Source: Exiguobacterium sp. s146 (GTDB lineage Bacteria; Bacillota; Bacilli; Exiguobacteriales; Exiguobacteriaceae). From it: a DNA stretch of 64,000 bases. This document shows, one piece after another, positions 3,408 to 61,671 of the stretch; within the stretch, counting starts at the first letter, position 1, and each line of letters opens with the position of its first letter. The position numbers and the translations under genes are program-made. Under the pieces are notes generated by a model. That model was not told the DNA's origin, did not search any database, and saw only the letters and a list, made by a program, of their open reading frames with translations. The stretch lies in NCBI RefSeq assembly GCF_018618415.1, contig NZ_JACSMA010000001.1, positions 744,001 through 808,000 on the forward strand, given 5' to 3'.

Positions 3408-5126
3408 TTACTTCTTAATATCGAATTTTTCACTGAGGAAGTTCACGACTTCTTCAGCTGTATCCATGTTGAGGACGTCGTTGACGATTGCTTCTGTTTC
3501 CGACTTCGTCAAACGCTTCACGAGGCTACGTGCGCGAAGGACGCTTGAAGCCGACATCGAGAATTCGTCAAGACCGAGTCCGAGAAGGATTGGAATCGCG
3601 AGCTCTTCTCCAGCCATCTCGCCACACATGCCGACCCATTTACCGGCTTTGTGTGCTTCTGTGATGACGTTGTGGAGCAAGTTCAAGATGGCCGGGTTGA
3701 ACGGTTGGTACAAGTACGAGACTTTCTCGTTCATACGGTCCGCTGCCATCGTGTATTGAATCAAGTCGTTCGTGCCGACCGAGAAGAAGTCGACTTCTTT
3801 CGCGAATTGCTTCGCCATGACGGCAGTCGATGGAATCTCGACCATCATCCCTGTCTCGTAGTTACCGACAGCGATGCCTTCTTCTTTCAACTTCGCTTCT
3901 TCTTCGAGCAAGATGGCTTTCGCAGCACGGAACTCTTCGAGCGTCGCGATCATTGGGAACATGATGGCGAGGTCACCGTGCGCCGAGGCACGGAGAAGCG
4001 CGCGAAGCTGTGTGCGGAACAAGTCCGTCTCTTCAAGGCAAAGGCGAATCGCACGATAGCCGAGGAACGGGTTCATCTCTTTTGGAAGGTCGAGGTAAGA
4101 CAATTCTTTATCTCCACCGATATCGAGCGTACGGATGACGACTTGTTTGCCGTCCATACCTTCGATGACTGCTTTATATGCTGTATACTGCTCTTCTTCC
4201 GTCGGGAACGTTTCCGAGTCCATGTAGAGGAACTCCGTCCGGTAAAGACCGATGGCGTCAGCGCCGTTTTTCAATACGCCTTCGAGGTCGTTCGGTGTAC
4301 CGATGTTGGCCGCCAATTTGACTTTGTGGCCGTCGGCTGTGACTGACTCTTCGTTGACGAGTTGTTTCAATTCTTCTTTATACGCTTCGAATGCTGCGCG
4401 TTTTTCGTTATATTCGTTGACGAGTTCTTCAGACGGGTTGACGAACACGTCGCCCTCTGTCCCGTCGATGACGACGAGATCGCCATTTTTGATTTCTTCA
4501 AGTGCTACTTTTGTCCCGACGACGGCAGGAATCTCGAGTGAACGAGACATGATGGCCGAGTGAGACGTACGTCCACCGATGTTTGTCGCGAATCCTTTGA
4601 CGTATTTACGGTTGAGCTGTGCTGTGTCAGATGGCGTCAAATCTTCAGCGATGATGATGACTTCTTCTGAGATTGAGGCTGGCGTCATGAACGTGACGCC
4701 GAGAATGTGCGCCATGACACGTTTCGTGACGTCACGAACGTCTGCTGCGCGCTCACGCATGTATTCGTTGTCCATCGATTCAAAGATCATGACCATCATC
4801 TGAGCGACTTCATCGAGCGCCTTCGCAGCGTTCATGTGTTCGCTTTCAATTTTGTCGTTCACTTGTGAGACGATCTCTGGATCCTCGACGATGAGCAAGT
4901 GGGCCGAGAAAATCTCTGCCTTGTCTTCACCGAGTTCACGGAGTGTGATTTGACGGATTTCTTCGAGTTCTGTTTTCGACTGAGCGATGGCCGCTTGGAA
5001 ACGGGCTTTCTCAGCTGCTACGTCCTCGATTTTGTTTGTCGGGATGTCGAATGAAGGTGTCTCCATGACGAATGCTTTCGCAACTGCGATTCCTGCAGAT
5101 GCGCCAATACCTTTAATGTGTGACAT
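3408..5126 (-). CDS. ptsI: PEP-protein phosphotransferase, enzyme I of the PTS
   Basis: Cytosolic enzyme that autophosphorylates with phosphoenolpyruvate and passes phosphate to HPr, energising every PTS permease. 572 residues, the usual length. The phosphorylated His189 lies in [10 protein letters not shown]; the C-terminal PEP-binding barrel shows [14 protein letters not shown] and MCGEMAG. The start MSHIKGIG is chosen because AGGGA sits 8 nt upstream; the frame runs 13 codons further without a good ribosome site. Unlike most Firmicutes, no ptsH (HPr) gene precedes it: about 330 bp of non-coding leader separates it from divergent pepA. Confidence 0.95.
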
Positions 5127-58545: not shown

Positions 58546-59166
58546 ATGCAAATCAATGCTTTTTATAACCGTGAAGGAATCGGCGATGTCCTCATGGTCC
58601 TGTTAAGAGAAGGCGATCGCCATCATCAAGTCGTAGAACGAAAAGACGATGTCGCCATCGTTAAATCGACGACGGGGAAAGTCAATGGCTATAACATTTT
58701 TAATGCCAGCAACTATTTCGATGTCAGTGACTGGCACGGACCTGTCGAGTTGACGGCTGAGCTGATTGAATCACTTGGTGTCATCTTACGTAAACAAAAT
58801 ATTGAAGCCGAGTTGACAGGCGTCGATTTCACACCGAAATTTGTCGTCGGGTATGTCAAAGAAGTTGAAAAGCATCCCGATGCCGACAAATTGTCAATCT
58901 GCCAAGTTGAAATAGATCAAGGAACGGTTCAAATCGTCTGTGGCGCACCGAACGTCGCGGCCGGGCAAAAAGTCGTCGTCGCGAAACCGGGAGCGGTCAT
59001 GCCATCAGGTTTGATCATTCGTCCGTCAAAATTACGGGGTGAAAGCTCGCACGGTATGATTTGTTCAGCCCGTGAATTGAACTTGCCGGATGCACCGCAA
59101 GAAAAAGGGATTCTCGTATTAGATGACGAATATGAAGTAGGGAAAGCATTTGAAATCGGTCGCTAA
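58546..59166 (+). CDS. ytpR: tRNA-binding-domain protein (YtpR)
   Basis: 206 residues: an N-terminal domain (about 1-90) and a C-terminal EMAP/PheT-type tRNA-binding OB domain (about 92-205) with GYVKEVEKHPDADKLSICQVEI, IVCGAPNVAAGQKV and MICSARELNLP. It resembles the N-terminal module of PheT without the synthetase. Function in cells is unknown. Start ATG 58546 is 11 nt after AGAAGGGG; an upstream GTG overlaps nothing useful. Confidence 0.9.
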   Translation: MQINAFYNREGIGDVLMVLLREGDRHHQVVERKDDVAIVKSTTGKVNGYNIFNASNYFDVSDWHGPVELTAELIESLGVILRKQNIEAELTGVDFTPKFVVGYVKEVEKHPDADKLSICQVEIDQGTVQIVCGAPNVAAGQKVVVAKPGAVMPSGLIIRPSKLRGESSHGMICSARELNLPDAPQEKGILVLDDEYEVGKAFEIGR

Positions 59167-59219
59167 ACTCGACCGATTTTTTGCTAAATAGGATTGAGTG
59201 AAGAAGCGAGGAATCAAGT

Positions 59220-60275
59220 ATGGATGCATATGAACGTTCATTAAAACAGCAAGCAGACCGAATTCGACGCGAACTATCCCAAGAAGGGAAAAAGGGTGCG
59301 CCTGCACCGAAGCCCGAGCCGAAGGATGAATTTGTGCCGTCGGATGTGCCGTCTCCGATTTATGGATATGCCCGACCGAAACCGAAAATCATCCTGCCGA
59401 CGGAACATTCTCCAGAGACGCGAGACGATTCAGCGATTCGCCAAGCGAAACGAGTGGCCGTCCCGGTAGAGGAGGATGTGTCGGAAGCGGTGCCGCCGAG
59501 CGTGGCGCCTGAGCCTGAAAACGCACCGGTAATTGAATCGGTCGATGAATCGGTTATGGAGCCAGCAGATGAAGCAATGGTTGAATCGGTCGATGAATCG
59601 GTTATGGAGCCAGCAGATGAAGTTTTGGAACCAACAGATGAAGCAATGGTTGAATCGGTTGATGAACCCGTGAGTGAGTCTGTAGACGAATCGGTAACTG
59701 AGACAGTTGATGAACCGGTGCCGACCGCGCCTGAAGCGTCGATGTCGCAGCCTGACCTCGATGTCGCAGCGGATGAATCACCGGAAACGGAGACGCTTGA
59801 GGAAATGGTGGCCGAGCAAGTGGAGGCACCGATCGAAACGTCGATTATTTCCGCGGAAACGTCGGAACCGATGGAAGAGAGTCCGACCGTCTCGGTAGAC
59901 GAGCCGGTGGAAGCAGACACTAAACCGCTTCTCGGAGAAGTCTCGATTGTCGAGAGCGGATTCGCTTCAGTCTTTATGGGGTCGACCGATTTGAAATCGT
60001 CAAAAATTTCCGTTCGCGAAGAAAAACAGGATATGGCCGAACCATCGTTGCCGATTGAGCCATCAGTCGAAACGGTGGCACCGATTGTCGAGGATGTTGC
60101 GAAAACATTACAGTCAGACGAACCGGTCGATGTGCCTTATGAAGAAACATTGACGCCCACCATGGGCGTGTCTTATAAAGCGGAAGGCCCTCCGCTCAAC
60201 GTCATGATGACACCGCAAGACCGGATGGCGATGTATAAGAGTCGGCGGCTAGCTAAAAAAAACAATAATCTGTAA
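59220..60275 (+). CDS. Acidic repeat protein resembling the SftA N-terminal region, FtsK motor absent
   Basis: 351-residue, mostly disordered protein at the ytpR-murC junction, where Bacillus carries sftA (soluble FtsK-like DNA translocase). Residues about 38-52 (FVPSDVPSPIYGYARPKP) and the end (PLNVMMTPQDRMAMYKS) resemble conserved pieces of the SftA linker as I recall it. No Walker A or B motif is present in any frame before murC. The middle (about 95-230) is Glu/Asp/Val/Ser-rich with 16-residue repeats (ESVDESVMEPADEAMV). Either a decayed sftA or a kept, motor-less version. The start is the ATG at 59220, preceded by AGCGAGGAATCAAGT. Confidence 0.7.
   Translation: MDAYERSLKQQADRIRRELSQEGKKGAPAPKPEPKDEFVPSDVPSPIYGYARPKPKIILPTEHSPETRDDSAIRQAKRVAVPVEEDVSEAVPPSVAPEPENAPVIESVDESVMEPADEAMVESVDESVMEPADEVLEPTDEAMVESVDEPVSESVDESVTETVDEPVPTAPEASMSQPDLDVAADESPETETLEEMVAEQVEAPIETSIISAETSEPMEESPTVSVDEPVEADTKPLLGEVSIVESGFASVFMGSTDLKSSKISVREEKQDMAEPSLPIEPSVETVAPIVEDVAKTLQSDEPVDVPYEETLTPTMGVSYKAEGPPLNVMMTPQDRMAMYKSRRLAKKNNNL
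59533..59628 (+). repeat. 48-bp tandem repeat in the SftA-like gene
   Basis: Two copies of a 48-bp unit start at 59533 and 59581, nearly identical until the last bases. A third partial copy starts at 59650. Each encodes the ESVDESVMEPADEAMV-type unit, a sign of slipped-strand expansion. Confidence 0.85.
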
Positions 60276-60295
60276 TAGCATGACTCCGGTAGTTT

Positions 60296-60304
60296 TGCTA
60301 TAAT
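60296..60304 (+). promoter_or_regulatory. Extended -10 promoter of murC
   Basis: TGCTATAAT is an extended -10 match. The -35 region is weak. Confidence 0.55.
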
Positions 60305-60363
60305 GACAAAGGTTTGTCGCATTTTTGATACAGACCGCAATGAATTAGGGGGGCTATTTACAG

Positions 60364-61671
60364 ATGAACCGTTATCACTTCGTCGGAATTAAAGGAACGG
60401 GCATGAGTCCTTTAGCTCAAATTTTAAATGACATGAACAATGAGGTCCGAGGTTCGGACGTTGACAAAGCATTTTTTACTGAAGAAGCATTGAACCGAAA
60501 AGGAATTGAAATCCTTCCGTTTGACCCAGAAAATATCACTGAAGGGCAAATCGTCGTCCAAGGTAACGCCTTCACAGACGATCACCCTGAAGTGGTGCGG
60601 GCACGCGAACTCGGATTGACGATATACAAGTACTATGAGTTTCTAGGCGAATTGGCCGACCACTATACGAGTGTCGCCATTACTGGATCGCATGGGAAAA
60701 CTTCGACGACAGGTCTGTTGGCCCACGTCATGCGTGGCATCGAGCCGACATCGTTCTTGATTGGCGATGGTACGGGAGAAGGTGTCGAGGATTCGAAGAA
60801 CTTCGTATTCGAGGCTTGTGAGTATAAGCGCCACTTCTTATACTATCGTCCGGACTACGCCATCATGACGAATATCGACTTCGATCATTCTGATTACTTC
60901 TCAGGGCTCGACGACGTCATCGACGCCTTCCAAGAGATGGCCAAGCAAGTGAAAAAAGGCATCATCGCTTGCGGTGATGACGAAAATCTTCAACACATTC
61001 AAGCGAACGTGCCAATCGTCTATTACGGCTTTGGCGCCCATAACGACTTCCGCGCCGAGAACGTGAACTCGACGGAGAACGGGACGACGTTTGATGTGTA
61101 TTTGCGTGACGACTTCTATGGGACGTTCCGGATTCCAGGATACGGCAACCATAGCGTCTTGAACGCACTTGCCGTCATCGCGACATGTGACTATGAGAAC
61201 TTACCGAAAGAGTTGGTCAAAGACCGCCTCGAGACGTTTAACGGCGTGAAACGTCGTTTCAGCGAATCGACGCTCGGAAGCCAAGTGTTAGTGGATGATT
61301 ATGCCCACCATCCACGGGAAATCAGTGCGACAGTGGAAGCGGCGCGTAAAAAATATGTCGGCCGTGAAGTCGTCGCCATCTTCCAACCGCACACGTACAC
61401 GCGTCTTAAATCATTCATGGATGATTTCGCTGCGGCATTAGCCGAAGCGGATGCCGTTTACTTGTGTGACATCTTCGGTTCGGCTCGCGAGCAAGAAGGT
61501 ACGGTCACGATCGAAGACCTGCAATCGCGCATCGAAGGTGCGAACGTGTTGAAGCGCGGCGGGACGCAAGTGCTTCAAGCACATGACAATGCCGTGCTCC
61601 TATTCATGGGCGCTGGGGACATCCAGACTTATCAACGCGAATATGAAAAACACGTCCAATTGGAAGCGTGA
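60364..61671 (+). CDS. murC: UDP-N-acetylmuramate-L-alanine ligase
   Basis: 435-residue Mur ligase adding L-Ala to UDP-MurNAc in peptidoglycan synthesis. Rossmann loop [16 protein letters not shown]-loop [23 protein letters not shown] and the C-terminal [10 protein letters not shown] blocks are intact. Start ATG 60364 follows GGGGGG at 10 nt. Confidence 0.97.

Follow-up and report, generated by a model that had tools for sequence, protein, structure and literature searches.

In the 64,000-nucleotide stretch of Exiguobacterium DNA analysed here (the window), an open reading frame of 351 codons with an ATG start lies between ytpR and murC, the genes that mark the sftA locus. The original prediction had placed an intact, properly started frame in this interval, and NCBIfam models identify both neighbours. 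Further upstream of the ytpR-X-murC series are a thioredoxin-like gene and a DUF1444 (ytpQ) gene (Pfam). The frame is called X below; it and the features around and within it are as follows.

58546..59166, + strand: ytpR, marker of the sftA locus on the upstream side of X (NCBIfam YtpR equivalog, E 4.2e-64)
59152..59180, + strand: hairpin and T-run, overlapping the ytpR stop, with 39 nt from its end to the X start (-18.2 kcal/mol, z -4.65)
59220..60275, + strand: X, motor-less SftA-linker protein of 351 aa (ORF, ATG start; SftA-only profile E 1.2e-8)
59226..59291, + strand: N-terminal helix of X, residues 3-24, predicted by AlphaFold2, family-specific and in the place of the SftA N-terminal membrane-type helix
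59331..59381, + strand: linker motif 1, residues 38-54, FVPSDVPSPIYGYARPK, common to SftA (SftA-only profile A3)
59400..59924, + strand: acidic and variable spacer rich in repeats, residues 61-235 (tandem repeats with periods of 12-24; dN/dS 0.36)
59925..60029, + strand: block 3, residues 236-270, LGEVSIVESGFASVFMGSTDL..., conserved in the window's genus only (conservation over 18 sequences; dN/dS 0.03)
60156..60272, + strand: C-terminal module, residues 313-351, with motif 2 PPLNVMMTPQD (324-334) and an end helix (332-348)
60296..60304, + strand: extended -10 sequence TGCTATAAT, 5' of murC (TGnTATAAT in 37/37 X-murC gaps)
60364..61671, + strand: murC, marker of the sftA locus on the downstream side of X (NCBIfam TIGR01082, E 1.3e-125)

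A Pfam scan of X returned no family at E<=0.1, and the NCBIfam scan gave a single meaningless match (E 0.47, scoring 9 bits where the cut-off is 540). By Pfam, X contains neither the FtsK alpha/beta motor with its Walker A and B motifs nor the DNA-reading gamma domain, which was found in a control SftA (L093) and in the SpoIIIE of the window's own genome. With no Pfam motor, X also falls outside the SpoIIIE/FtsK membrane-motor architecture of a transmembrane domain joined to a motor. The two blocks previously likened to the SftA linker are present, VPSPIYGY at residues 43-50 and PLNVMMTPQDR at residues 325-335, and the repeats noted earlier correspond to the tandem repeats of the spacer. The A-run near the end of X, TAAAAAAAAC (60254-60263), is real. 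As had been argued, it hides no frameshifted motor: a -1 shift meets an immediate stop and a +1 shift adds 15 residues.

The gap from the X stop to murC is 88 bp. The original prediction of about 90 bp that include a murC promoter holds for the length and for the conserved TGnTATAAT; the extended -10 sequence at 60296-60304 is absent from the output of the two-hexamer promoter scan. Likewise, the ytpR hairpin at 59152-59180 is missing from that of the consensus terminator scan. Both scans returned counts close to the shuffled expectation. In 38/38 family genomes the sequence at the ytpR-X hairpin site folds at -10 kcal/mol or below, and since a hairpin with a T-run stands between ytpR and X, X may be weakly transcribed.

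Relationship of X to SftA

SftA (YtpS) is a soluble, septum-associated FtsK-like DNA translocase of Bacilli. X resembles it in occupying the ytpR-murC locus and in having linker motif 1 and, by profile in the window's genus, motif 2 in the same order with a long spacer between them. In X these read FxPSDVPSPIYGY and then PLNVMMTPxD; in SftA they read FxPTDVPSPIYGF/Y and PFNVxMxxxD, the latter preceding the motor. X differs in being without the alpha/beta/gamma motor, Walker A/B and the N-terminal membrane-type helix, and in its length of 236-407 aa as against at least 713 aa.

The resemblance was evaluated with profiles in both directions. A motif-1 profile made from SftA sequences alone (A3, 21 rows, no Exiguobacterium sequence) matches X in 38/38 family genomes with E values of 3.4e-7 to 6.5e-11 (1.2e-8 in the window's own genome). 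Outside the family, its listed matches at E<=1e-3 (398 genomes searched) fall in frames at least 713 aa long, Walker A having been read in part of these. The exception is a 337-aa frame in genome G114 (L076) with no ytpR, ytpQ or murC in its stretch, an SftA-like frame that runs off the contig end. Within the window's genus, the corresponding motif-2 profile (A4, 25 rows) has X as its best match in 18 of 19 genomes (E 0.0012 for X itself). It finds X in 0/19 genomes of the second genus at E<=10, where motif 2 rests on the within-family alignment to the first genus.

In the reverse direction, among 250 genomes of the class, the family N-module profile matched 60 (22 family and 38 others), and its nine best non-family matches lie in frames of 848-1100 aa. 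The family C-module profile (A2) matched 29 (21 family and 8 others, seven of the latter in frames of 746-1333 aa and the eighth being G045), including long SftA-locus frames of 1085-1333 aa in family f10. A plasmid search with the N-module gave no match. Several short-frame matches were set aside as chance: G203 (391 aa, L074) and G045 (269 aa, L075), with no ytpR, ytpQ or murC in the stretch; G171 (145 aa, residues 1-24 only) and G122 and G152 (84 aa, with a stop), found with the N-module; and eight A3 matches outside the family at E 0.008-0.05.

A total of 46 SftA proteins were read, from 17 profile-found loci (15 beside murC) and 29 named loci chosen by the pattern DVPSPIYG. Walker A is intact in 46/46, motif 2 is present in 44 and strict motif 1 in 39. 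All 29 named loci encode motif 1, motif 2 and Walker A in that order in proteins of 714-1137 aa; for these loci motif 1 was the selection pattern and motif 2 played no part in the selection. Two of the 17 SftA-type loci (L078 and L082, family f12) lie away from ytpR/murC and are without both strict motifs, and they branch separately with f20_G056 in the single-gene motor tree described below.

It is scarcely credible that the motifs are chance or convergent and X unrelated to SftA: they are short and nothing else in X aligns, but the E value of 1e-8 comes from a profile free of Exiguobacterium sequence, both motifs keep their order at the same locus, and no unrelated short frame outside the family scores equally at E<=1e-3 in the 398 genomes, bar the G114 fragment. 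The identity of X as an SftA-derived linker protein is well supported, and the main reading of the original prediction, an SftA-like gene at the sftA locus that has no motor, is upheld by the profiles in both directions, by synteny and by there being no second chromosome-type motor in the 38 genomes. X is SftA-derived and is not a member of the SftA translocases.

Motor loss, conservation and predicted structure of X

The search of the whole genome for a full SftA that had been proposed yielded one FtsK/SpoIIIE match over the cut-off, a 728-aa frame elsewhere that is of the SpoIIIE type. In each of the 38 genomes a single FtsK/SpoIIIE frame is strong; its length is 444-763 aa, with the lowest value in G018, whose assembly has about 60 contigs. 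Other FtsK matches in these genomes are weak and partial (E 1e-4 or worse). For six family genomes the motor type was read from trees: these motors cluster with SpoIIIE, not SftA, at a support of 1.000, and three or four membrane segments are predicted close to their N-termini. The other 32 were typed by frame length and number of matches. Relocation of the SftA motor to another part of the genome is ruled out by these assignments, on trees in the six and by length and match count in the 32, and the earlier statement that the FtsK/SpoIIIE ATPase is gone agrees with the single chromosome-type motor per genome. SpoIIIE, compared with X, is a membrane-spanning motor encoded elsewhere and without linker motif 1. 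Six of the 38 genomes (G004, G008, G020, G021, G022 and G034) also carry an extra FtsK-family frame of 1558-1742 aa, the size of the type VII secretion protein EssC.

In a single-gene SpoIIIE tree with five Exiguobacterium genomes, the family groups with families f10 and f42 (support 0.94), and the larger enclosing group (0.999) holds several SftA-bearing families. With Exiguobacterium thus placed among families whose SftA bears a motor, loss of the motor is the simpler direction. The reverse history, in which a free linker came first and acquired its motor by fusion in other Bacilli, would agree with the family-wide occurrence of X in Exiguobacterium. We consider it very unlikely, given that this single-gene tree puts the family beside and inside motor-bearing SftA families and that f42 retains a recognisable motor remnant, which shows that loss happens (see below).

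Orthologues of X were found in 38/38 family genomes as open frames of 236-407 aa with no internal stops. They cover two genera, both called Exiguobacterium (e.g., E. sibiricum 255-15 and E. chiriqhucha RW-2). In a check of the ytpR-murC interval across these genomes, X is preceded by ytpR in 38/38 and followed by murC in 37; the last locus stops at a contig end. In one assembly (L040) an N-run (4256-4300) falls within the repeat region of X, and the C-terminal module is present after it. The layout is constant: 55-60 conserved N-terminal residues, a variable acidic middle and 35-40 conserved C-terminal residues.

Selection was estimated from close pairs (5 sequences, 10 pairs), the values relied on here. 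Among these five relatives dN/dS is 0.04 at the N end, 0.36 in the middle and 0.03 at the C end; block 3 (residues 236-270) also gives 0.03, and residues 271-312 give 0.32. Across 18 more diverged sequences, in which synonymous sites are nearly saturated, pN/pS is 0.17 at the N end, 0.62 in the middle, 0.17 at the C end, 0.32 in block 3 and 0.51 in residues 271-312. The contig-end locus L018 was excluded from the 18-sequence comparison, and both L018 and L040 from the C-module set. Block 3 follows the pattern LGxVSIxxxGFxSVFMxSTxL and is not conserved in the six second-genus rows of the alignment. The second genus has at this place a different, partly repeated block (EADAGLVPxTD...LLVPEP).

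AlphaFold2, run with a 20-row alignment, predicts helices at residues 3-24 and 332-348 and little else (mean pLDDT 51.6). Residues 1-20 have a pLDDT of 91-92, and this helix is conserved in both genera; the end helix has a pLDDT of 87-94, within a module whose dN/dS is 0.03. Residues 81-237 fall below 50 nearly throughout. X is confidently predicted to have a helix at each end with disorder between. A score combining hydrophobicity and moment at the N-terminus peaks at 0.06 and 0.18 for the two X proteins scored, versus 0.31-0.92 for 11 SftA proteins, and the hydrophobic/amphipathic N-terminal helix of SftA (MSWxKKLF type) is absent from both.

A missing motor, a variable middle, repeats and length changes are what a decaying relic of sftA would display, and a fresh relic had been one of the two outcomes originally envisaged. 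This is contradicted by the open frames in 38/38 species genomes over two genera, by dN/dS of 0.03-0.04 at both ends and by the identity of the motif 1 core, with DVPSPIYG invariant in the 20-row alignment; we regard decay as highly improbable. The same open frames and dN/dS values rule out a recent deletion, and the agreement of 38/38 species genomes rules out an assembly deletion of the motor in the window's genome. Taken together, the computations establish descent of X from SftA, loss of the motor, and retention of the remainder under selection.

Other murC regions and a possible role for X

In 30 genomes with a single strong motor murC was located, and nine of these regions were read; the other 21, where MurC is only distantly related, were left. 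All nine lie outside the Exiguobacterium family. Three (family f42) contain an SftA with a dead motor, two (f5) a short gene with an FRFP/YRFP stretch, and in four (f32, f34, f26 and f45) nothing was recognised as SftA or a remnant of it.

L209-L211, L216-L245, L258-L261: dead-motor SftA of family f42, between ytpR and murC, whole proteins of 532-632 aa

The f42 protein was matched in 33/33 f42 genomes from six genera, and 29 of the 30 loci read first have ytpQ, ytpR and murC in reach. In the one protein scanned with Pfam, FtsK_SpoIIIE is weak (2.6e-11), FtsK_alpha is at 3.1e-7 and gamma is absent, versus 1.6e-68, 3.2e-30 and 1.4e-27, respectively, in the control SftA. Walker A is destroyed in 30/30 loci read first and in three other genomes, hence in 33/33; Walker B shows an altered DE in 29/30 and in two of the other three, so that two genomes keep it. 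The dead beta domain has a dN/dS of 0.06 (four species). By simple patterns, motif 2 occurs in 12/30, a motif-1-like stretch in 15/30 and FRFP in 18/30, so f42 does not retain the linker motifs throughout. A separate SpoIIIE-size frame accompanies the dead motor gene. The f42 protein is like X in its ytpR-murC locus, its loss of Walker A and its being under selection; it is unlike X in keeping a motor remnant, whereas in Exiguobacterium the motor was deleted outright.

Families f10 and f42 are sisters with support of 0.999 (one genome each). Both f10 proteins read have Walker A, and the motor losses in f42 and Exiguobacterium therefore look separate: a deletion in the latter, and a loss of Walker A in a sister of f10, which is probably Staphylococcaceae judging by protein size and layout. 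The f5 regions read (L212 and L213) have before murC a motor-less protein of 265 and 279 aa, matched in 20/29 f5 genomes. Its one link to SftA is an initial FRFP or YRFP stretch, a simple pattern also found at the start of 9/46 SftA proteins; the f5 protein may, tentatively, be a third SftA remnant.

S. aureus FtsK is presumably the product of an SftA-locus gene, and two probable staphylococcal loci (L086 and L087) contain Walker A and motif 2. Passages of PMC12755775 and PMC12272431 give this protein, a DNA translocase unlike X, roles beyond DNA moving: positioning of Sle1 at the septum with trigger factor, and localisation of CxaR. For SftA, passages of PMC11790237 describe binding to the Z-ring supported by SepF and FtsA, slightly elongated cells upon its loss, a block to division when it is overexpressed in an ezrA mutant and a P375S substitution in a B. 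subtilis suppressor strain; a passage of a review states that the FtsZ ring recruits SftA (PMC5357621). The literature passages on SftA contain no source that maps a partner (SepF, FtsA) to motif 1 or motif 2. SepF, the candidate partner, is present in 38/38 Exiguobacterium genomes. From the literature on SftA and S. aureus FtsK and from this distribution of SepF, our proposal is that, of the functions of SftA, X has retained docking and scaffolding.

On the way to Exiguobacterium, everything behind linker motif 2 was deleted, meaning all three motor domains (alpha, beta, gamma), and the membrane-type helix ahead of motif 1 was lost or replaced. What remains is an acidic arm, predicted to be disordered, that carries two conserved putative docking segments between its terminal helices. 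Early division proteins, with SepF or FtsA as the best candidates, may be bound by one of the two motifs or by both, and X would do the non-pumping work of SftA, either Z-ring scaffolding or the positioning of a cell-wall factor, with SpoIIIE alone moving DNA. Lacking the SftA membrane-type helix, X would need another route to the septum, probably one that relies on protein contacts alone. Loss of the whole pump with the arm kept under strong selection suggests that the arm has its own job at the division site. We infer the septal location, partners and scaffolding role of X from these observations, and on balance favour its being a motor-free divisome adaptor. The motor-independent role at the septum raised in the original prediction gains strength from the constrained dead motor of f42.

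X might instead have left division to serve cell-wall metabolism away from the Z-ring, for example by stabilising or positioning a peptidoglycan hydrolase or chaperone or by acting on MurC. X precedes murC in 37/37 loci with murC in reach, and passages of PMC12755775 and PMC12272431 have S. aureus FtsK stabilising and localising the amidase Sle1 via trigger factor. The sftA-murC neighbourhood is, however, common to SftA-bearing Bacilli, so it is nothing special to X, and murC has its own conserved -10 sequence; such a role appears unlikely. A function as a loader in trans, with X held at the Z-ring by the SftA motifs and recruiting SpoIIIE to the septum, is also doubtful, and rather improbable in our view. 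SpoIIIE is the only chromosome-type motor left, and motif 2 with the C-terminal helix is the part that once adjoined a motor, but nothing found here connects X with SpoIIIE, and f42 keeps its dead motor beside a separate SpoIIIE-size frame.

The adaptor reading of X, extended to the other families, leads to a broader proposal that we put forward tentatively: the SftA linker could be an autonomous divisome module, with a selected function separable from pumping, whose motor was discarded at least twice in Bacilli, and perhaps three times if f5 is counted, with the linker or the entire scaffold being kept. If this is true, scaffolding would be better conserved than translocation among the roles of this FtsK-family protein, and translocation would be dispensable. 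Deletion of SftA removes motor and linker together, so a non-pumping role in division is hard to see; Exiguobacterium, with a linker and no motor, and f42, with a scaffold and a dead motor, would be natural separation-of-function experiments. The two short motifs are pointed to as targets for mutation, and a motor-less SftA is predicted to supply part of SftA function in a model Bacillus.

In a literature search, no motor-less SftA appeared among the matches listed (titles and the starts of abstracts); subscription papers fall largely outside its scope, which makes this weak evidence of novelty. Exiguobacterium and SftA both occur in one paper, on Spo0M.
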